Virus record (IMG/VR): IMGVR_UViG_3300028417_000016
Span: 1 to 28,114 of that record
Origin: a virus
Direction: 5' to 3' (one strand)
DNA: 28,114 nucleotides
Program-made: the position numbers and the translations under genes
Shown: piece by piece, positions 6,333 through 26,877 of the stretch
How positions within the stretch are numbered: the first letter of the stretch is position 1
How the letters are laid out: each line of letters begins with the position of its first letter
The notes under the pieces: generated by a model
Database searches by the model: none
Seen by the model: the letters and a program-made list of their open reading frames with translations, nothing else
Told to the model about the DNA's origin: nothing

Positions 6333-7496
6333 TTATTCACATTTTATAGCCATATAACTATCATATGTATTTCTAAAACAGTCTTGAAATACTATATAAG
6401 TATCTGTACCAATAGTAATAATACTCTCTGTAGTAATTCCTACATAAGGCGTAAAATAACAACTTTCAAATTCTCCTAAAACTTGGTTGTTGTAAGTAAT
6501 ATAAATAGGAAAAATTACTGGAGAATACCCAGAAATATAATCTATAGTTAACCAATGAGCTGTATTATTCGTTGTAGGAGATAAAGTAGCATTTCTTATC
6601 CAAGAACCATCTACATTAATTAGTTGATTATTATAATATCCTATGGTTCCAAAATAAGCTTTTGCTATAAAATGTCTATTAGTATCTGTAGAATCATACC
6701 ATTTAATATAAGTATTTGCTACATTACTATAACAGATATTTAAATCTCCTATGCAAGTATATGGATAAGGATATTCTGCAGGACTGCCAAAAGGAAAAAA
6801 CTTTCCTATATAAGCAAAAGAATAATAAGTATCACTTCTAACTACTATAATAATTCTTTGTTTACTTGAAAAAATCCACATATCCATATATCCATTCCAC
6901 ATCCCAAAAGCTGATTGAAAAGTTCCATCACTAGTTACATTGTTAGGATTTCCTACAGTGGTATCAAAAAAGTTAGTATATCCTGGGATAAACATTTTAT
7001 AAGTTTTTAATAATACATTAGCTTTTCCATAACCAGCACTACACAATAACATTCCAACATTTATTGATTCTGTACCTGAAATTCCCGTATTATTTAATAC
7101 AATTTGAACTCTTCTAAAATTTACTGAATAAGTTACTACTGTTCCTGTAGTAGTATTAAGTAAACTAGAAATAGTGTTTATTCCACTTAAAAACTTAACT
7201 CTCCCTAATAACCAATCTACTTGATAATCTACTCCTTCTGTTAAAGAAATAGTTCCTACACTAAAATTATAGTCTGTAATACACCCTACAGGCAAGTCAT
7301 ACCAAGTATCTAAAGCATATATTGTTATACTTCCTGAAAAAGTTATATAATCAAAATTTGTATCTTGTGTATCTACTTCAGAATGTACAATTTGCCAGTC
7401 TCTTCCAGGAGTAGTAGAATCTCCTGTAACAAATCTTAATATTTCTGTAAATGCTTGTGCAAATCCTGTTACTGATATTTTCCCACTATATGCCAT
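6333..7496 (-). CDS. Virion structural protein (tail), aromatic-rich
   Basis: 387 residues, ATG at 7496 behind AAGGAG. N-terminus FAQAFTEILRFVTGD...DWQIVHSE, then beta-rich sequence. A central segment (about residues 200-255) with MWNGYMDMWIFSSKQRIIIV and FPFGSPAEYPYPYTCIGD resembles a recurring domain of large-phage virion proteins in which a W.f....Rii.v core is followed by a YPYP turn. That resemblance is from memory and not searched. It follows the tape measure gene directly, the usual place of distal tail or tail-fibre genes. No catalytic motif. Confidence 0.6.
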   Translation of the reverse strand: MAYSGKISVTGFAQAFTEILRFVTGDSTTPGRDWQIVHSEVDTQDTNFDYITFSGSITIYALDTWYDLPVGCITDYNFSVGTISLTEGVDYQVDWLLGRVKFLSGINTISSLLNTTTGTVVTYSVNFRRVQIVLNNTGISGTESINVGMLLCSAGYGKANVLLKTYKMFIPGYTNFFDTTVGNPNNVTSDGTFQSAFGMWNGYMDMWIFSSKQRIIIVVRSDTYYSFAYIGKFFPFGSPAEYPYPYTCIGDLNICYSNVANTYIKWYDSTDTNRHFIAKAYFGTIGYYNNQLINVDGSWIRNATLSPTTNNTAHWLTIDYISGYSPVIFPIYITYNNQVLGEFESCYFTPYVGITTESIITIGTDTYIVFQDCFRNTYDSYMAIKCE

Positions 7497-7506
7497 AGTT
7501 TACTCC

Positions 7507-10500
7507 TTAAGTTGCTGTTAATAAAATCTTACGCACTTTATCTGCTTGTAATCCTATAACATTTAGTACAGTTTTTTGTCCTTCTGGAGTACTTAAGTAT
7601 TGAGCTATTAGTTTAGGGTCTAAAACATTAACTATGTTAACATGTGTAGGAGAAGATTGTGCAGGAGAACTTTGTTGATTTTTATCCCCTACAAATTTTA
7701 CAGGAATTGCTTTCCCATCAGGTAAAGGTACAACTGCTTCAGGATTTTTTCCTTCCCCTATAATACCTATAGTAGGTCTATTTACAACTCCACCATATGC
7801 AAATTGCTGAACAGGAATAAATTCTCCTGGGAATATAGCACCTTTAGCAGCCATTGCTGCAGAAATTCCAGCTTTAGCTAATGCCTTGTATATGGCAATT
7901 TTAACTAAAGTGTTTACTATAATTTGCATTATAGATTGAGTAAAATTAGCAATAAAATCTTTGAATTTTTTAAATTTCTTTGTCATTAAATCCATAATTA
8001 AATTACTAATAGTAGAAGCTGTTACATTTACGATTTGAGAAATAGCAGAAACAACCATTTTTGAGGTAGTTCCCACTTGCTTCATCCAATCTGCTAAACC
8101 CGCTTTTAAATATTGAATAGTTATTCCAAATTTTCCTAACTTTTGATTTAATTCGTCTATACTTTGTTGTCCGTATGTACCTAATAAAGAAAATAAAGAG
8201 TTAAAAGTAACATAACTCATTTTACCTTCTATAACTAATTGTATAAACTTTTCTTTAATTGCATTTAAAGAGTTAACAATTCTATCATAATTTAATTTAG
8301 CAGTAATGTCTCCTTGAGTTTTCCACTTTTCATTTAACTCATCTAAAATAATTCCTAAATTTTTTCCTTGTGATTGTAAAAACTCTATGTATTGTGAAGT
8401 TTTATATAAAGAAATTTTAGATTCTATAGGTAATTTTTCTAATAATTGAGTAAATTCTTGTAAATTTAAGTTTCCTTGTGAAAATTCTTCACTAATTTTT
8501 TGCCCAGCAGATTTAAACTTTTGTTCTACATTAATTCCATGTTTCTTTAAAACTTCTAATTTATCATTTAATACTGTTAAAATTTTATCGAAAGTATCAA
8601 AATTTTTAGCACTTTCTATGCTTTTATCTAAATTTATAGATAAGTAATGTAATGCTTGAGCAGAACTATATCCTAATTTTTCTAATTTCTTTAAATTATC
8701 TATAGCTACATTTAAATTACTTGCAGGACTTAAAATTAAAGATTCTTTTAACTTATTTCTAAGTTCTTGTGGAAGTGAATATAAAATCTTTTTCAATGTA
8801 GAAGCTTTTAACAATCCTGCATTCCATAATTGAAGTGTTTTTTGTAATACAACTTCATAAGCTTTTGCAGGAGAAATATTAAGTACATCTTTCAAGAATC
8901 CTTTATAAGTACTAATATCTTTTATTACCTTTAATAATTGTTTACCATTAGTAATTTCTTGATTAATATAATTAATAAAAGATTTTTCCATAGATTTTGA
9001 AACTACCGAAGCAGAAATACCTGCTTTTTCAAAAGCTAATTTCAATTGAATTAATTGCTTAATTGATAAAGAATTATTTTTTAAAAAGCTATCAGTAACA
9101 TTTACTAGTTCTTTATATTTTTTATTTAATTGAGCTAATGCAATAGCTTCTTGAATACTACTATCTAAACCTTTTCCCTTACTTTGATTTAATTTTTGGA
9201 CAGTAGATTCTAATTGTTTATAAGTTCGTAATAAAGCTTTAATATCATTTATATTAGATATAGGATATTCAGTAAGATATTTCCATTGTTGATTTAAAGT
9301 TTCAATTTTGTCAGATAAATTTTTAATAGAGGCAGCTACAGATTCAAAAGATTTATTTTCTTCTTGAATTTTTCCTTTTTCTTTAAGAATAGTTCCACCT
9401 AGGTTTTTATATGCTTTTTCAAGATGATTAATTTCTTCCTTTAACTGATATAAAAGTTTAACTTGTCTAACAAAATGTTGAGAAGTGGGAGACAAATGGG
9501 AAAAAGTTTTCTCTAAATTTTCTCTAACAGATTTACTTAAATCTGCTGATTTTGCTTCAATTTCTGCAAAAGCAGCTAGTTGTTTAACTTTATACTTTCC
9601 ATAAAATTGTTCATATTTTGAGCTAAAGTCATTTATTAAAGTATTTATCTCTTCATCAATATTTTTCTTTACAGCACTAAACACATTGTCTAAATTATTA
9701 AGTAATACCTTTTGTAAAGCTTTAGCATTTTCTGTAGAAGGTAAGCTTAACAATTTTGTTACTGCATCTTTATATTCTTGATAAACTTTTTCTCCGCCAT
9801 ATTGTCTAATTAAGTTTCCTATTTTTTCAAATGAAGATTTATATAAAGGAACAGATTGAGCTAAACTTTGAGCAGGTAATTGCAGTATTTCCCCAAATTT
9901 AATAAGAGTTTTTAAATTATCTTGAATCCAAGCTGGAATCATTTGCTTTTGTCTTTTAATTATACTTTCTACAAAAGAAAAAGCACTTCCTAAAGTTAAT
10001 AAAATTCCTATTACAGGACGAGTTTTTATTAATAAAAGACCTATAGATGCTGTAAAAATTTCTATAGCTTGACTAGCTTGCAGAACATGGGTTTTTAAAG
10101 CTATAATAGTTCCTAAAAATGTACTTAAAACTGCAATAACTGTACCTGCTTTAGTTGCTAAAGATGCAAAACTTAAAGTTCTTATAGCGATTCCTAATTC
10201 TTGAACACCATTCCTAAATGCTACTAGAATAGGTAATGCTACTTCTAAATTACTAGTAATAGTTCTTATATTTCTAGCTAAAAGAAGCATTCCAGCAGTC
10301 ATCAATCCTGCTTGACCAAAAGTACTTCTTAAAAATCCTGAAAATATTTTAAATGAGTTAGAAAGACCACCAATTAAGTCTAAAAATAGTGGTTTAGCAA
10401 AATCTCTTAACTCTGCAAAAGTACTTCTAATTTCATTTCTAAACAATTTAAATTGAGCATCTATAGATTGGGTATAGTTTCGTATCATTTGATACAAATC

Positions 10501-13388: not shown

Positions 13389-13802
13389 TTATAATGTAGT
13401 TAATCTTATTTTCCAAGAAGAAACTATAGTGATAATTTGACTATCGTAATCAATAGCTTCAGAATACCCACCAAAGAACTCTGCTTTATATCCCACATTA
13501 TAAGTAGTATTAGTACTTTGATAACAGTTAAAGTTTTTTATTAATATATCAAATAAAGATAAAGCTGTACTTAATTTTTCCTTGCAAAATATAGAAAATA
13601 AAGCTATTAAGTCGTAATAGCCATAATAATTATTTCCATAAAATAAAGGGTCAATTTTAACAACATCTATCAATAAAGCAGGAAATTTTGGGTCTCGTCT
13701 TTGCAAAGTGTATATATCTGCAAAGTTATTAGCAATATCAGGAATACTTTTTAAATCTTGTACTAAAGCTGCTAAAAAGTTTTGTAATAAAGTATTAGCC
13801 AT
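13389..13802 (-). CDS. Tail terminator / tail completion protein
   Basis: 137 residues: helical N-terminus (LLQNFLAALVQDLKSIPDI), a FPALLIDVVKIDP strand typical of tail-terminator proteins ('P.l.i....'), then a YYDLIALFSIFCKEK strand-helix and a C-terminal ...TIVSSWKIRLTTL strand. Size and place, after the gp10-like gene and before the tube gene, fit the lambda gpU / SPP1 gp17 fold that caps the tube. It starts one base from the stop of the neighbouring gp10-like gene. No clear SD; upstream bases read TAAGAACATAAA. Confidence 0.65.
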   Translation of the reverse strand: MANTLLQNFLAALVQDLKSIPDIANNFADIYTLQRRDPKFPALLIDVVKIDPLFYGNNYYGYYDLIALFSIFCKEKLSTALSLFDILIKNFNCYQSTNTTYNVGYKAEFFGGYSEAIDYDSQIITIVSSWKIRLTTL

Positions 13803-13803
13803 T

Positions 13804-14355
13804 TTATGTTCTTACTTCTTTCTTTAATTTATTCTTATACTTTCTCATATAGTATCGTATCTTCCTATTAAAATACTTTTCAATTTCTTCTTTATGAATT
13901 ATACAATAAAGTAAATGTAAAGGTCTAGGAATCATTTTATTTGTTCCAAAAAATACATACTCAGCGTGAGGACATTTTTGAGTATCTAGGTAAATTTTAG
14001 TAATAGCTTTATTTCCCGTATATTGTATTGTATCGTCATATTTTACACTTCTAGCTAACAATCCTGTTTGTCTATTAATCTCATCTAATCTTACTCCACT
14101 AAACTTTAAAGCAGCTAAAGCTGCAACAATAGCTCTTAAATTAGAAGAAGCAAAAGCTCTTATTTGATAATGTCTTTTTGCATAAGGATGGTCTAAATAT
14201 CTTAATTCTTGTAAGCTTAATATTCCACTTAAATATTCTTTAATAAAAGATTTTCTCATATATTGAGTTGTACTTTTAAGAGATTTTTCTATAGATTCTT
14301 TAGCCCACTTATCCAAATCAGTAATTTCTATCTTAGTTTTCATTTTAAATTTCAT
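13804..14355 (-). CDS. HK97 gp10-like head-tail connector protein
   Basis: 183 residues, basic and helical. The diagnostic piece is AEYVFFGTNKMIPRP at about residues 133-147, the 'YV.fGT.kM.PRPf' motif of HK97 gp10-like / minor tail proteins; it is preceded by a GLLARSVKYDDTIQ strand ('G.L..sI') and by an unusual longer helical N-terminus. C-terminus is Arg/Lys-rich. Start ATG 14355 (a second ATG follows four codons later); the SD is a weak AAGGG in the last codons of the upstream gene. Confidence 0.8.
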   Translation of the reverse strand: MKFKMKTKIEITDLDKWAKESIEKSLKSTTQYMRKSFIKEYLSGILSLQELRYLDHPYAKRHYQIRAFASSNLRAIVAALAALKFSGVRLDEINRQTGLLARSVKYDDTIQYTGNKAITKIYLDTQKCPHAEYVFFGTNKMIPRPLHLLYCIIHKEEIEKYFNRKIRYYMRKYKNKLKKEVRT

Positions 14356-14359
14356 TTTA

Positions 14360-14692
14360 TTACCCTTTTAATTCTAATGTTAAAATATTTAAAGAATGCC
14401 TTCCACCTAAATCTATTACAGGTAAAATTTGTTTAATTTGAAAAGTAAGATTATTCCATTCTAACTTATCTTCAGGCGAGACTTCTACATTTGAGGGAAT
14501 AATACATTCATAAACAATATCTTCTATAATACCACCTTTTTCTGTTACAATTTTACTTCTTTTAGCATTAATATATCCCATTACTTCTATTTGAGTTTCT
14601 TCATAATCGTATTCTCCAAATTCATTCTGAACTGGGGTTAGGTGAGTTATTAAGACTTTATGACAAAGACAATTTTTAAACATTTTTAGCAA
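14360..14692 (-). CDS. Head-tail stopper / head closure protein
   Basis: Up to 110 residues. The core reads EFGEYDYEETQIEVMGYINA, then EDKLEWNNLTFQIKQILPVI, the beta-barrel pattern of SPP1 gp16 / HK97 head closure proteins ('G....GD.v...g..y.V..v'). The open frame starts with TTG at 14692; a better start is ATG at 14683 (three codons in), which overlaps the end of the connector gene (stop 14678-14676). Neither has an SD, so coupled translation is likely. Confidence 0.7.
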   Translation of the reverse strand: MLKMFKNCLCHKVLITHLTPVQNEFGEYDYEETQIEVMGYINAKRSKIVTEKGGIIEDIVYECIIPSNVEVSPEDKLEWNNLTFQIKQILPVIDLGGRHSLNILTLELKG

Positions 14693-22009: not shown

Positions 22010-22597
22010 ATGACTAAAAAAGTAGCAATAACTGGTGGAATTGCTACTGGAAAAAGCACTTTACTTAAATTAATAAAAGACTTTGGATTCCCTGTTATTT
22101 CTTGTGATGACATAGTAAAGGAGCTTTACTCAAGTGATAAGATTAAACAGCTTATAAAAAATGAATTTGGTAGCCAGGTTTTAAGTCCTGATGGTGAAGT
22201 AGATAAAAAAGCCTTGTTAAATCTGATTCTCAAGTCTAAGGAAAAAAGAAAAAGACTAGAATCCCTGATTCATCCATTAGTTAACAGGGAAATCGAAAAA
22301 TTTTTAGAAATCTCTCAACAAAAAGGGCTTCCGTTAGTTTTCGTAGAAGTTCCTCTGCTATTTGAGTGTGGATGGGAAGACATGTTTGACGAAGTTTGGG
22401 TGATAACCTGTAATGAGGAAACCCAGAGGAAGCGAATTCTCGAACGCTCAATGGGAGAAGCCTTTTTAAAACTTGCTAATATTCAAATGCCTTTAAAAGA
22501 AAAAGAAGCTCTTGCAACAAGAATATTTTCTTCAGAGAAATCTATAGAAGAACTTAAAAAAGAATTAAAAAATGTTTTACAACAAATGTTTCATTAA
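22010..22597 (+). CDS. coaE: Dephospho-CoA kinase
   Basis: 195 residues, the full family length. Phosphorylates the 3'-hydroxyl of the ribose of dephospho-CoA with ATP, the last step of CoA synthesis. Seen: P-loop GGIATGKST (9-17), SCDDIVKELY (Asp33, Asp34, substrate-site region), ESLIHPLV, VEVPLLFE (113-119), VWVITCNEETQRKRILER and QMPLKEKEALA (159-169). All landmarks of CoaE are intact. SD GGGGAG. The middle of the gene (22320-22440) is about 43% G+C by direct count, well above its neighbours (a sample at 21061-21120 is far lower), which suggests fairly recent capture from a host. Last gene of the (+) cassette, ending 28 bases from the convergent TerL stop; no terminator hairpin is visible there. 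Confidence 0.92.
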   Translation: MTKKVAITGGIATGKSTLLKLIKDFGFPVISCDDIVKELYSSDKIKQLIKNEFGSQVLSPDGEVDKKALLNLILKSKEKRKRLESLIHPLVNREIEKFLEISQQKGLPLVFVEVPLLFECGWEDMFDEVWVITCNEETQRKRILERSMGEAFLKLANIQMPLKEKEALATRIFSSEKSIEELKKELKNVLQQMFH

Positions 22598-22625: not shown

Positions 22626-25600
22626 TTACCAACTTTCTACTTCTATATCTTCTTCTAAATACTTCCTATGCTTTCTCCAGTATTCACGAGCAAACCAGCT
22701 AGCCATAACAATATCATCATTTTCTCCAAATGGATACATAGTTAATTCTTCAATCCACTTACACTTACCACATTTACAATCACTTTCGTGTGGCTTTTTC
22801 CCCATAGGAATAATCCATCTTTGTTTTTCAAATTCTAAAGCCATAGCAGGAAGTCCTATTTCAGGGTCGTGTTTATTTCCACCTGTATAATGACTTTCTA
22901 CAGGTAAATCTTGTTTAAACTCTTCTAGCCATTGTTTTAGTGCTTCCTGATACTGGTTACTTTCCACTACAATAACATCTACTTTCCAATCTTTATAAAG
23001 CTTCATAATAGCATTTACTGTTTCAGGGCTAGTCCACTTTCCATATTCAATGTGTAAAGCAACTAGTTTGTAATCTTTTTTCTTAGGTAACAATCCCATA
23101 ATAAAAATAGCTGTATTAGCACTTTTCTTCTTTTGAGAAATAGCTAAATCTACTCCCATAATAATGTAATCACATTTTTTAAGATAATGCTTTGGGTCAT
23201 TATATACTATACAATTTTCAATTTTTTCTTTATCAAAGACAGCATCTTCTCTTGAAATAGGTAAATTACCAAAAGCTCTTGCAAAAGCTCTAAGGGGCAT
23301 TGAGTTATATCTTTCTAATAATTTTTCTTTAGTCCATCTTTCTTCCCAAATAGGTTCTAAAGTATTTAAGTCAATTCTATAGACTTTCTTATACTTCATT
23401 GGCTTTTCATGAAATTCCCAATGCAAATCCATTTGCGTCCAAATAGTTCCTATAAGACACCAACCATAACCATCTGGTTCAAGCAAATTTAACCAGTTAT
23501 TATAAAATGCCTCTTTAACCATAGGAATTAATGCAGGATATTTAATTGTATTATTAAACTCTACAATATCATCAAAAATTATATAATCGCTATTATGTAA
23601 TATAGCCCAAATACTACAAAATGAATGTTCAGTATCAACACTTAAATCATAAACATAACCATTATAATCTTCTTCATAAATAGTCTTGAGTTCAATTTCT
23701 ATATATTGATTTATTTCATTTGGAAAAATTAAACAATAGTTTTTTCTATTTTGTAACAAACATTTACAAGATACCCACTCTTTAATATTTTTTTCTTTAT
23801 TTAATAAATAAATTTTATGCTCTGGAGTTAAAATAATTTTATTATTTTTATTATTTTTAGTTTCAATTACAATAACTTTTCCTTTATAAGGTCTTTTCCA
23901 AGTTTTTATAACCCTTCTAAACTTACCTTCTTTTGTTAAGACTGTATCTTTTGTAGTTATTTCTTCAACAGGTTTTACTCCATTAGAAGTAATAATCAAA
24001 GTTCCTTTTCCTACACATCTCCCCCCTGTAGCTCCTGATAATACACCTAAAGATTCTATTGTTACATCTTTACTCCAAATGTCTCTTTTAATTAAAATTT
24101 TATTAGAAGCCCATACATCTCCAGGTTCAAGATGAGGAAATATTTCCTTTAATTTTTCATTACCTTCAATTGCCTCTTTTATTTGTCTTAAAATATCTGC
24201 TGCTTTTTTATCAGAATGAGATACAAGTTTTATTCTTAAATTAGGATTATGTCCAAGTAGAAATAAAGGACGCATAACAGACATTACTGTAGTATTATGT
24301 GTAATAATTCCATTAGTAATGTGATTATGGTATTTTTCTATTTCTAATCCTATTGTAGGTTTTTTACCTTTATATTCTATTTTAACAATTTTATCCCATC
24401 TAATAGGAGCATTTAAAAGCATTCTTAATTCTGGAATATTTGGAAAAAGTTCTACTAATTTTCTTAATTTGTCATAAGTTATATCATATTTATTATCTAT
24501 CCTTAATCCATAATATTTACGAATAAAATGTGGAGTTAAAGGTAAATATTGTAAAACTAATTGTCTAGGAATAGTAGCATAAGTAGAAGGAGCAGCATTT
24601 TCAACATATTCTAAAATATCTTCTGTTTTTTTATTTAAAACTTCTTTTAAAAATTTTAATTTAAATTCTTTACCGCCAAAGACAGTAATTGTATAATATT
24701 CTCTTGTATAAGATTGTCTTACACAAATATTAGAAGGGATTCCAATATATTCTAATAAAGTTTGAACTTGATATGCTAAATTTTTTGAAGTTGTAGTATA
24801 AGCAATAACTGTATCGTTTTTAAACTTTTGTTTTTTTCTTTTAACTTTACTTATATATCCATCACCAAGCCATAAATATTTAAGAAATAATTTAATATCT
24901 TCTTCAGGAGAATTAAATAGTTCTTTTGGGATTTCTTTTTCATAAGACCTTTTTCCATATAAATTATATTTCTTTAAAAATTCAATTAATTTTTTTCTTC
25001 CTTTAATTTCTTTTGATATATTAGTTATTCTATATTCTATCTCTCTTTTTGTTTGAATTAATTGACATCCAAATTCTAATAATGCTTCATTTAATTTATT
25101 AACTAAAAATTTGTTAGATTTAGTATAAACTAAATTGCCTGAGCTTAAACTACCATCTGCAATTAAACAAGCTAAAATTATAAGTTGATTATCTGTAAAA
25201 TGCTTTTTAGTGTTTATTCTTGGAATATGAAGAGGAACTGCTACTTTTTCTCCAACAGTTAAACCTTCTTCTAAAGACTTCCAACCATCAGCAGTTAAAA
25301 AAGGATGATTAGAAGTTACTTCTATGCTTTTTCCAGAAGCAAGTTTTATTTCATATACATCTTTTATTCCATTATCAACAATTGCTGTAATTTTAGCAGA
25401 AACAAACTTACAATTTTCTACATCATATGCTATAATACTTTCACCTATTTTACAATCTTTTACTTTTTTTAAACTCCCATCTGTCAAAGTAATGACAGTG
25501 TCAAAAATCTGACACTTTGCATGAGAACGGGGAGCAAAGATTACACAAGGAGCACCTTCTTTCATTGCTTTAGTAGCTAAGGCGTGCCATTCTTTATGAA

Positions 25601-25730
25601 TTCTACCTAATTTTAATCCAAATACATATTCACAAAAAGTAGGGAAGTGCTTTCTAGCTTTCTTTAATAGTAAAGTTTTTTCTAAGTTATTTTTAATTGT
25701 TAGTAATTTAGTTAATTCTTTATTATCCAT
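22626..25730 (-). CDS. terL: Terminase large subunit interrupted by two inteins
   Basis: 1034 residues; removing both inteins leaves 485, normal for TerL. ATPase: FAPRSHAK (65-72) joins TTVMS (480-484) to form Walker A; SDYIIFDD (714-721) is Walker B. Inteins are Cys73-Asn479 and Cys572-Asn713. Nuclease (RNase H-like): MGVDLA with Asp861, VIVVESN with Glu923, and GENDDIVMA with Asp1005/1006. A CKCGKC pair (985-990) inside the nuclease domain could bind zinc and is not usual. The protein cuts concatemers and pumps DNA into the head; it should be inactive until both inteins have spliced, since each sits at an ATP-site motif. Starts two bases after the stop of the Hint-like gene, without SD. Confidence 0.95.
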   Translation of the reverse strand: MDNKELTKLLTIKNNLEKTLLLKKARKHFPTFCEYVFGLKLGRIHKEWHALATKAMKEGAPCVIFAPRSHAKCQIFDTVITLTDGSLKKVKDCKIGESIIAYDVENCKFVSAKITAIVDNGIKDVYEIKLASGKSIEVTSNHPFLTADGWKSLEEGLTVGEKVAVPLHIPRINTKKHFTDNQLIILACLIADGSLSSGNLVYTKSNKFLVNKLNEALLEFGCQLIQTKREIEYRITNISKEIKGRKKLIEFLKKYNLYGKRSYEKEIPKELFNSPEEDIKLFLKYLWLGDGYISKVKRKKQKFKNDTVIAYTTTSKNLAYQVQTLLEYIGIPSNICVRQSYTREYYTITVFGGKEFKLKFLKEVLNKKTEDILEYVENAAPSTYATIPRQLVLQYLPLTPHFIRKYYGLRIDNKYDITYDKLRKLVELFPNIPELRMLLNAPIRWDKIVKIEYKGKKPTIGLEIEKYHNHITNGIITHNTTVMSVMRPLFLLGHNPNLRIKLVSHSDKKAADILRQIKEAIEGNEKLKEIFPHLEPGDVWASNKILIKRDIWSKDVTIESLGVLSGATGGRCVGKGTLIITSNGVKPVEEITTKDTVLTKEGKFRRVIKTWKRPYKGKVIVIETKNNKNNKIILTPEHKIYLLNKEKNIKEWVSCKCLLQNRKNYCLIFPNEINQYIEIELKTIYEEDYNGYVYDLSVDTEHSFCSIWAILHNSDYIIFDDIVEFNNTIKYPALIPMVKEAFYNNWLNLLEPDGYGWCLIGTIWTQMDLHWEFHEKPMKYKKVYRIDLNTLEPIWEERWTKEKLLERYNSMPLRAFARAFGNLPISREDAVFDKEKIENCIVYNDPKHYLKKCDYIIMGVDLAISQKKKSANTAIFIMGLLPKKKDYKLVALHIEYGKWTSPETVNAIMKLYKDWKVDVIVVESNQYQEALKQWLEEFKQDLPVESHYTGGNKHDPEIGLPAMALEFEKQRWIIPMGKKPHESDCKCGKCKWIEELTMYPFGENDDIVMASWFAREYWRKHRKYLEEDIEVESW
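23592..24017 (-). other. Mini-intein 2 in TerL (Walker B site), Cys572-Asn713
   Basis: 142 residues, no endonuclease. Block A begins CVGKGTLIITSNGVKPVEEI, block B has LTPEHKI (T..H motif), and block F/G is YVYDLSVDTEHSFC then AILHN, followed by Ser as +1 nucleophile. All residues needed for splicing (Cys1, block B Thr/His, His-Asn end, Ser+1) are present, so it should splice. Insertion is between Arg571 and Ser714, just ahead of YIIFDD. Confidence 0.93.
24294..25514 (-). other. Intein 1 in TerL (Walker A site) with LAGLIDADG endonuclease, Cys73-Asn479
   Basis: 407 residues. Block A CQIFDTVITLTDGSLKKV, block B EVTSNHPFL (Thr139...His142), C-terminal KPTIGLEIEKYHNHITNGII then THN, followed by Thr480 (+1). 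Two LAGLIDADG motifs: LIILACLIADGSL (183-195, Asp192) and LKYLWLGDGYI (283-293, Asp290), so the homing endonuclease looks intact and the intein may still be mobile. It splits Walker A between Lys72 and Thr480. Confidence 0.95.
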
Positions 25731-25732
25731 AG

Positions 25733-26224
25733 CTAGCTGATTAAAAGGACTGCATATTTTATAGCTAAGTTTGGAGATTTCTTAAGTTTTATTTGATATA
25801 AAAAAACTTCTTGAGCGTAATACTTTTCAATCCTTTTTATAGGGAAGTAAACAAATCTTTTATCCTGCTTAAATAAAGGATTAAACCAAGCTCTCTTTCT
25901 AGCATAAGAAGCTGGGAATGCAATTTCAAATTTTTCTGGCATTTTGTAAATAAAATCCATAGTTCTCCATTGTACTACATAATTATCTTCTGTCAATTTA
26001 GTTTTAACTAGAATTTCTTGTTTAGTAGCTACTTGAAAATGAATGATTTCATTTACTTCTATAAAAACTTTATACATATATCCACTATATTCAAAAAAAG
26101 AAAAATTTTCAATTACATCGTATGCTCCTGAATAAGTTAATACTTTATCATCATACTCAAGCAAAGAAATTAATTTTTCTCCATTATTAGTAATTATTTT
26201 ATTATCATAACAAATTCTATTCAT
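25733..26224 (-). CDS. Free-standing Hint (intein-like) protein without splice-junction residues
   Basis: 163 residues, SD AGAGGAAG before ATG 26224. Pattern matches a complete Hint fold: ICYDNKIITNNGEKLISLLE with D-K-V-L-T (block A region, Cys5), VATKQEILV where inteins have T..H (His replaced by Glu), and a C-terminal QEVFLYQIKLKKSPNLAIKY like intein block F. It ends in LLIS instead of HN plus nucleophile, and only four residues precede the Cys. So it cannot splice as inteins do. It lies between TerS and the doubly intein-containing TerL. It may be a domesticated Hint domain or a decayed intein kept as its own gene; its even reading frame and good SD argue for function. Confidence 0.7.
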   Translation of the reverse strand: MNRICYDNKIITNNGEKLISLLEYDDKVLTYSGAYDVIENFSFFEYSGYMYKVFIEVNEIIHFQVATKQEILVKTKLTEDNYVVQWRTMDFIYKMPEKFEIAFPASYARKRAWFNPLFKQDKRFVYFPIKRIEKYYAQEVFLYQIKLKKSPNLAIKYAVLLIS

Positions 26225-26226
26225 AA

Positions 26227-26877
26227 TTAGTCTTCCTCTAGTTCAAGTTCGTCTAAAAAGTTTTTCTTTGACTTTGAAGATTTAGCTAATGATTCTAGTT
26301 CTGCTTCTTCATCTTTATCTTGAATAGATTCTAGTTTTTCCTGTTGTACTTTCTCTTCTATAGCTTTTTTAAGTTCATTATCTTTTGTTATAGGATTAGA
26401 AAATCCCTGTAAAATTTCATTAATTTTTCTTAGTGTTTGTCTTATTTCCTTTTCTTCCATACTAGTAAAGTCTAAGTCAATTTCAGATTTGCTTGTCGCT
26501 CTTCCTAATAACAATCTCTTTTGTTCAAATATCATCTTTAATGTTTCCATAGCTTCTTTCCAAGAAGAAGGTTCTAAGTCTTTTTCTACAATAGCACGGA
26601 TAGTTTTTTCTAAAAGTTTATCTAAAAGCATTAAGTGGGCAACATCATCTTTTAGTAAACTGTCATTTTCTAATTTAGATAAAATAACTTCCCACTTTGC
26701 TAACTTTTCTTGCATTTTTTCAATTCGTTCATCCCACTTATCTTCTTCTTTCCACTTTAATAAAGTAGAATATCCTGGCATTCCAGGAAGTTCAGCCACT
26801 GCTTTTAGTGAACCTAATTTTTTATATAACTGAAATGCTTGTTCTCTTTTAATAAGTTCTAGGTTCATTTTAGCCAT
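26227..26877 (-). CDS. terS: Terminase small subunit
   Basis: 216 residues. N-terminal helix-turn-helix of TerS type (residues about 10-48: AFQLYKKLGSLKAVAELPGM then YSTLLKWKEEDKW), followed by a long helical/coiled-coil part (KMQEKLAKWEVILSKL; MLLDKLLEKTIRAIV) for ring assembly and an acidic C-terminus (ELELEED) of the kind that contacts TerL. Recognises packaging DNA and stimulates TerL. ATG 26877 is five bases after the RHH gene, whose last codons provide an AAGGAT SD; followed two bases later by the Hint-like gene. Confidence 0.85.
   Translation of the reverse strand: MAKMNLELIKREQAFQLYKKLGSLKAVAELPGMPGYSTLLKWKEEDKWDERIEKMQEKLAKWEVILSKLENDSLLKDDVAHLMLLDKLLEKTIRAIVEKDLEPSSWKEAMETLKMIFEQKRLLLGRATSKSEIDLDFTSMEEKEIRQTLRKINEILQGFSNPITKDNELKKAIEEKVQQEKLESIQDKDEEAELESLAKSSKSKKNFLDELELEED

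Follow-up and report, generated by a model that had tools for sequence, protein, structure and literature searches.

A free-standing, splicing-dead Hint gene between terS and terL of a virus, through which terL may be translated

The gene that separates terS from terL on the minus strand of a 28,114-base virus record, that of a hot-vent phage, encodes, almost certainly, a free-standing Hint protein that is homologous to mini-inteins and has lost the residues of splicing. The whole record, hereafter the window, is AT-rich and shows the standard order of head-tail genes; terS, the Hint gene and terL are adjoining cistrons in it (Table 1). On balance, and by a modest measure, we favour the reading that this gene is a captured mini-intein turned into a cistron through which terL is translated.

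Table 1. Features of the terS-Hint-terL region of the window
Feature	Position	Strand	Evidence
TerS (terminase small subunit), upstream neighbour	26227..26877	-	phrog_6299, E 6e-9; 59-67% identity to TerS of the related contigs L003-L005
Shine-Dalgarno GAGGA within the last codons of terS, now that of the Hint gene	26234..26238	-	junction sequences, dG
Free-standing Hint protein, predicted to be splicing-dead, 163 aa	25733..26224	-	ORF, coding statistics, homology, fold
Block A-like segment, residues 7-36 (DNKIITNNGEKLISLLEYDDKVLTYSGAYD)	26117..26206	-	hhalign and HMM alignment
Block B-like segment, residues 63-73 (FQVATKQEILV)	26006..26038	-	alignments; His replaced by Gln or Glu
Block F/G-like segment, residues 125-163 (VYFPIKRIEKYYAQEVFLYQIKLKKSPNLAIKYAVLLIS)	25736..25852	-	alignments and end points of the structure alignments
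Stop-start junction TAG-CT-ATG of the Hint gene and terL, 2-nt gap	25728..25735	-	sequence
TerL with two inteins	22626..25730	-	phrog_38, E 4.6e-51; Intein_splicing, E 3.8e-27; LAGLIDADG_3, E 6.8e-16
TerL intein 1, 407 aa, with LAGLIDADG domain	24294..25514	-	
TerL intein 2, 142-aa mini-intein of a family detectably related to the Hint protein	23592..24017	-	

The Hint ORF is a genuine separate gene. Its codon log-odds were 0.25 in frame and did not exceed 0.04 in any of the five remaining frames, which indicates coding, its in-frame codon usage resembles that of the window's other genes, and the probability that its 163 codons remain open by chance is 1e-6 to 1e-9. The ATG is preceded by the Shine-Dalgarno sequence GAGGA (dG -6.0), and the stop-to-stop frame begins just 18 nt upstream of this ATG. 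TerS, Hint and TerL are each encoded in a different reading frame, which rules out a read-through fusion with TerS or TerL. An earlier note, made from the sequence alone, had described a free-standing protein with its own start and strong Shine-Dalgarno, placed exactly between TerS and TerL; the ORF, its strand and its coordinates were found to be exact, and these points hold, with the addition that the Shine-Dalgarno sequence falls within the 3' end of terS. Regarding the surroundings of the gene, an imperfect direct repeat is present at both stop-start junctions (TAATTATGAATA and TAGCTATGGATA), too short to serve as evidence for a mechanism, and a gene for CoaE (dephospho-CoA kinase; window 22010-22597, E 2.7e-38) converges on terL.

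The homology of the Hint protein to mini-inteins exceeds chance. Against a profile of three TerL second inteins it scored 18.4 bits, a value equalled by 0 of 20,000 shuffled sequences; the runner-up ORF of the window had 3.4 bits. With a broader intein profile, aligned over residues 6-159, the score rose to 37.5 bits (best shuffle, 13.3), a value carrying a small bias as one of the six members of this profile had been picked through a search with the Hint protein itself; none of about 20,000 shuffles reached either score. By sequence the protein thus belongs to the HINT superfamily, although the Hint models of Pfam, PHROGs and NCBIfam gave no match to it. A blind tblastn search of 50,697 phage records returned 10 weak matches at E<=10 from two phage types, in both cases on the N-terminal blocks of genuine inteins and in the register of block A; the block A-like segment shows 40% identity over 45 aa to the intein of a Lak phage RecA. 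Identity to the nearest TerL inteins is only 19-23%, and a recent copy of TerL intein 2 of the same genome was rejected at 19% identity.

Candidates for further free-standing Hint proteins were also discarded: the Salicola and Lak matches are inteins inside RecA/UvsX-type proteins, and five other phage matches lie inside larger proteins or adjoin extein sequence. It should be noted that some N-terminal intein parts end in a stop codon (L015/L016:1501-1785 and L026:2501-2818), following a RecA-like protein in Lak-type phages or a methylase-like N-terminus, which suggests split inteins or interrupted genes.

The predicted structure agrees with this assignment. AlphaFold gave an uninformative model from the single sequence (pLDDT 31.6) and, when eight intein rows were aligned with it, a model with a pLDDT of 86.9 and a pTM of 0.81, which supports the homology yet is not independent of it since the input alignment contained inteins. 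In this model the Hint fold, a horseshoe beta fold of about 130-150 residues, covers residues 1-163. Among solved structures, the top Foldseek matches of the model were inteins and a bacterial intein-like (BIL) domain (E 5e-6), with Hint proteins throughout, and VIA gave Z values of 16-17 over 130-147 residues to Hedgehog and inteins (16.8 over 137 residues to Hedgehog 1at0/6tyy). The earlier note had proposed a Hint fold, to be given up if the prediction were anything but a horseshoe, and the prediction came out in its favour.

By contrast with the fold, the catalytic positions are replaced. Structure alignments open at model residue 3 versus intein residue 1 and close at residue 162 versus the terminal intein Asn. 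Arg3 hence stands at the position of Cys1, Leu161-Ile162 stand for His-Asn and Ser163 occupies the +1 position. Cys5 lies two residues away from position 1, and MAFFT pairs it with Cys1 only when a 2-residue gap is opened. In block B the His has given way to Gln69 or, in another register, to Glu70, and in block F the Asp has become Gln. The lost residues (position 1, block B His and His-Asn) are required for splicing (PMC7765530). Because these positions are replaced and the "exteins" would be of only 2 and 1 residues, leaving nothing to splice, the protein is predicted from its sequence to be splicing-dead, unable to splice by the route of any known intein class. The earlier claim of a splicing-dead protein is therefore upheld, with its details corrected: the block A and block F segments do align, but the place of the position 1 nucleophile is taken by Arg3 and not by Cys5, and the block F Asp is lost; the block B His is indeed missing, its replacement being Gln or Glu rather than Glu for certain; and the Ile-Ser reported in place of His-Asn was one residue off.

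Comparison with known systems sets the protein apart from each of them. With class 1 mini-inteins (TerL intein 2 and the mini-inteins of phage UvsX/RecA) it shares the Hint fold, the block order A-B-F-G and homology over most of its length, but it is not embedded in frame in a host protein, has its own start and stop, and has neither Cys, Ser or Thr at position 1 nor a class 2 or class 3 substitute, no Thr-x-x-His, no block F Asp and no His-Asn. BIL domains are likewise Hint domains outside classical inteins, and two of them, 2lwy and 6y75, are similar to the model (Z about 16). BILs auto-cleave inside larger variable proteins, the A-type ending in a C-terminal His-Asn and the B-type having in common with inteins all motifs but that of the C-terminus (PMC7765530); the Hint protein, in contrast, stands alone with its 163 aa and is devoid of the catalytic set. 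A third likeness is to the mob genes of T4, free-standing homing endonuclease genes at gene junctions, selfish-element-related ORFs wedged between essential genes, some with an arrangement suggestive of translational coupling (PMC2988022). No LAGLIDADG, HNH or GIY-YIG endonuclease domain was found in the Hint protein, which gave no Pfam match, and in the present case the gene with an apparent coupling to the insert is the essential one downstream of it.

Profile scans with TerL and TerS found four related contigs (TerL 77-88% identical) and one copy in a metagenome-assembled genome (MAG), this last being a copy of one of the related contigs in a MAG recorded as Thermodesulfobacteriota from the Guaymas Basin. 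In L003, L004 and L005, whose TerL is 77-81% identical to that of the window, terS is followed directly by terL. Both TerL inteins are present in L003, where the TxxH of block B and the HN at the C-terminus are intact; L004 carries intein 2 alone, and L005 a LAGLIDADG-less, 135-aa mini-intein 1 alone. Close Hint orthologues were absent from 2.9 million viral contigs (two scans with different peptides) and from phages, plasmids and the records of the relatives. The 198 relatives of the MAG yielded nothing further, a portal query again returned the L002 contig only, and a capsid query had no match. Orthologues beside TerL in related phages, which the earlier note had hoped for, were thus not found; neither was any frameshifted copy seen that would betray a decaying fragment, the relatives being simply without the gene. 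Gain in the lineage of the window would be the simplest history, with loss in the relatives a possible one, as judged from the three known terS-terL junctions of relatives, among which L004 and L005 are close kin. As the gene is absent from relatives with so similar a TerL, it is dispensable for packaging in this phage group.

TerL inteins turn over rapidly across the window and these three contigs, and at the empty intein-2 site of L005 an Ala takes the place of the Ser or Cys found at occupied sites. Elsewhere in L005 (positions 6681-7880), an ORF that is TnpB-like by eye, with a zinc-finger Cys motif, lies between the genes for portal and protease, with a copy of the portal C-terminus (RRIPDFLS) at the end of its frame.

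A second stand-alone dead Hint protein was met among viral predicted structures, where the top Foldseek match of the model was a 143-aa uncharacterised protein of Lactobacillus phage P1. It is encoded by a free-standing gene, LVP1_g075, annotated "hypothetical protein" (L021:11922-12353, that is phage P1 61821-62252), with Maenadvirus orthologues in phages Maenad and Satyr (L022 and L023:2920-3429). These proteins have Gly at position 1, Gln where block B would have His, and HD instead of HN; block F has lost its Asp, and the terminal Asn is changed to Asp, the penultimate His being kept. The P1 protein is 58.7% identical to the Maenad and Satyr orthologues. Between P1 and Maenad, pN is 0.24 and pS 0.74 (pN/pS 0.32), and dN/dS is about 0.08 with dS saturated. 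Nearly the whole genome of phage P1 was searched and showed no second Hint domain, so that a dead Hint gene can persist with no intein to serve. The literature search, with the terms chosen, found no paper on stand-alone or dead inteins, and the Maenadvirus protein appears to be undescribed.

The window and Maenadvirus proteins each consist of one Hint domain devoid of the position 1 Cys, the block B His, the block F Asp and the terminal Asn. They differ in that the Maenadvirus gene sits in a cluster of small genes and not beside terL, in its retained penultimate His, and in sequence (about 18% identity). The Maenad and window proteins are only distant kin (SW z about 5), and TerL intein 2 (z 13-14) resembles the P1 protein more than the window protein does; judged by these scores, the stand-alone genes probably arose independently.

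The position of the Hint gene bears on the translation of terL. In L004 and L005, the Shine-Dalgarno sequence of terL (dG -3.3) lies in the tail of terS, where that of the window serves the Hint gene. The terL of the window has no Shine-Dalgarno sequence, its dG of +0.9 being the weakest among 26 genes, and starts 2 nt past the Hint stop. Termination-reinitiation is efficient when the gap is very short, and almost none is left once the gap reaches about 20 nt (PMC10666635). We consider it rather probable that translation of terL is coupled to the Hint gene. A former mini-intein domain would have become a stand-alone cistron between terS and terL, losing splicing, and would have taken over the ancestral Shine-Dalgarno sequence of terL at the end of terS; terL would then be translated by termination-reinitiation from the Hint stop. 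A nonsense or frameshift mutation in the Hint frame would cut TerL off, and selection would hold the frame open in cis even if the protein were idle. Because TerL synthesis would pass through it, the frame would stay intact regardless of the function of the protein, which would most likely be a folded domain rich in beta structure, devoid of catalysis and co-produced with TerS and TerL. Several genes with very weak Shine-Dalgarno sequences (window 13389-14692 and 25728) begin directly at the upstream stop or ahead of it, and reinitiation may be common in this phage.

Several points temper the coupled-cistron reading: since further genes of the window have weak Shine-Dalgarno sequences, the absence of one before terL is no proof; no Hint orthologue was found, and the comparison comprises three junctions, two from close kin; and the good fold model leaned on the intein alignment. 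A possible, though distinctly less probable, explanation is that the Hint protein is domesticated and under selection for a role in trans, where it would bind without catalysis, e.g. in packaging or on host proteins, in which case coupling to terS and terL could set its dose. The Maenadvirus family, with its free-standing dead Hint protein conserved between species, makes such a domesticated role, also raised in the earlier note, more plausible, as do the ordinary codon usage and the intact, confidently folding domain of the window gene; the distant relationship of the two proteins, the lack of an orthologue of the window gene and its absence from relatives with a similar TerL weigh against it.

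That the gene is a functionless relic, recently inserted and on its way to loss, open by chance or for lack of time, is improbable. Its sporadic distribution, lost catalytic positions and lack of a database orthologue would fit a relic, but the low identity to the nearest TerL inteins speaks against a recent copy, and all 163 codons have nevertheless stayed open in a genome where about 8-12% of random codons would be stops; moreover, the residues that determine the fold have been retained and the catalytic ones lost, a pattern unlike that of neutral decay. The suggestion of the earlier note that the protein inhibits or helps the two TerL inteins in trans would fit its adjoining the intein-bearing TerL and its belonging to the same Hint group as intein 2. 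We hold this to be very improbable: since L003 carries both inteins, motifs intact, and lacks the gene, the TerL inteins do not need it; inteins come and go in L004 and L005 equally without it, and the Maenadvirus protein is retained in a phage that showed no second Hint domain.

The known activity of Hint domains is autoprocessing, i.e. splicing, cleavage and lipid transfer. We tentatively put forward, as less than probable, that phages repeatedly convert mini-inteins into stand-alone, catalytically dead Hint proteins selected for functions in trans, the Hint fold being used without autoprocessing, and that the window and Maenadvirus provide two independent cases; the Maenadvirus family offers cultivable phages for a direct functional test of a dead Hint protein. 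If a Hint domain has stayed intact here after the loss of its chemistry, the fold itself can be domesticated. If the ribosome-binding site of an essential gene has been captured, as the coupled-cistron reading has it, this would be a further route by which a formerly selfish element becomes hard to delete.
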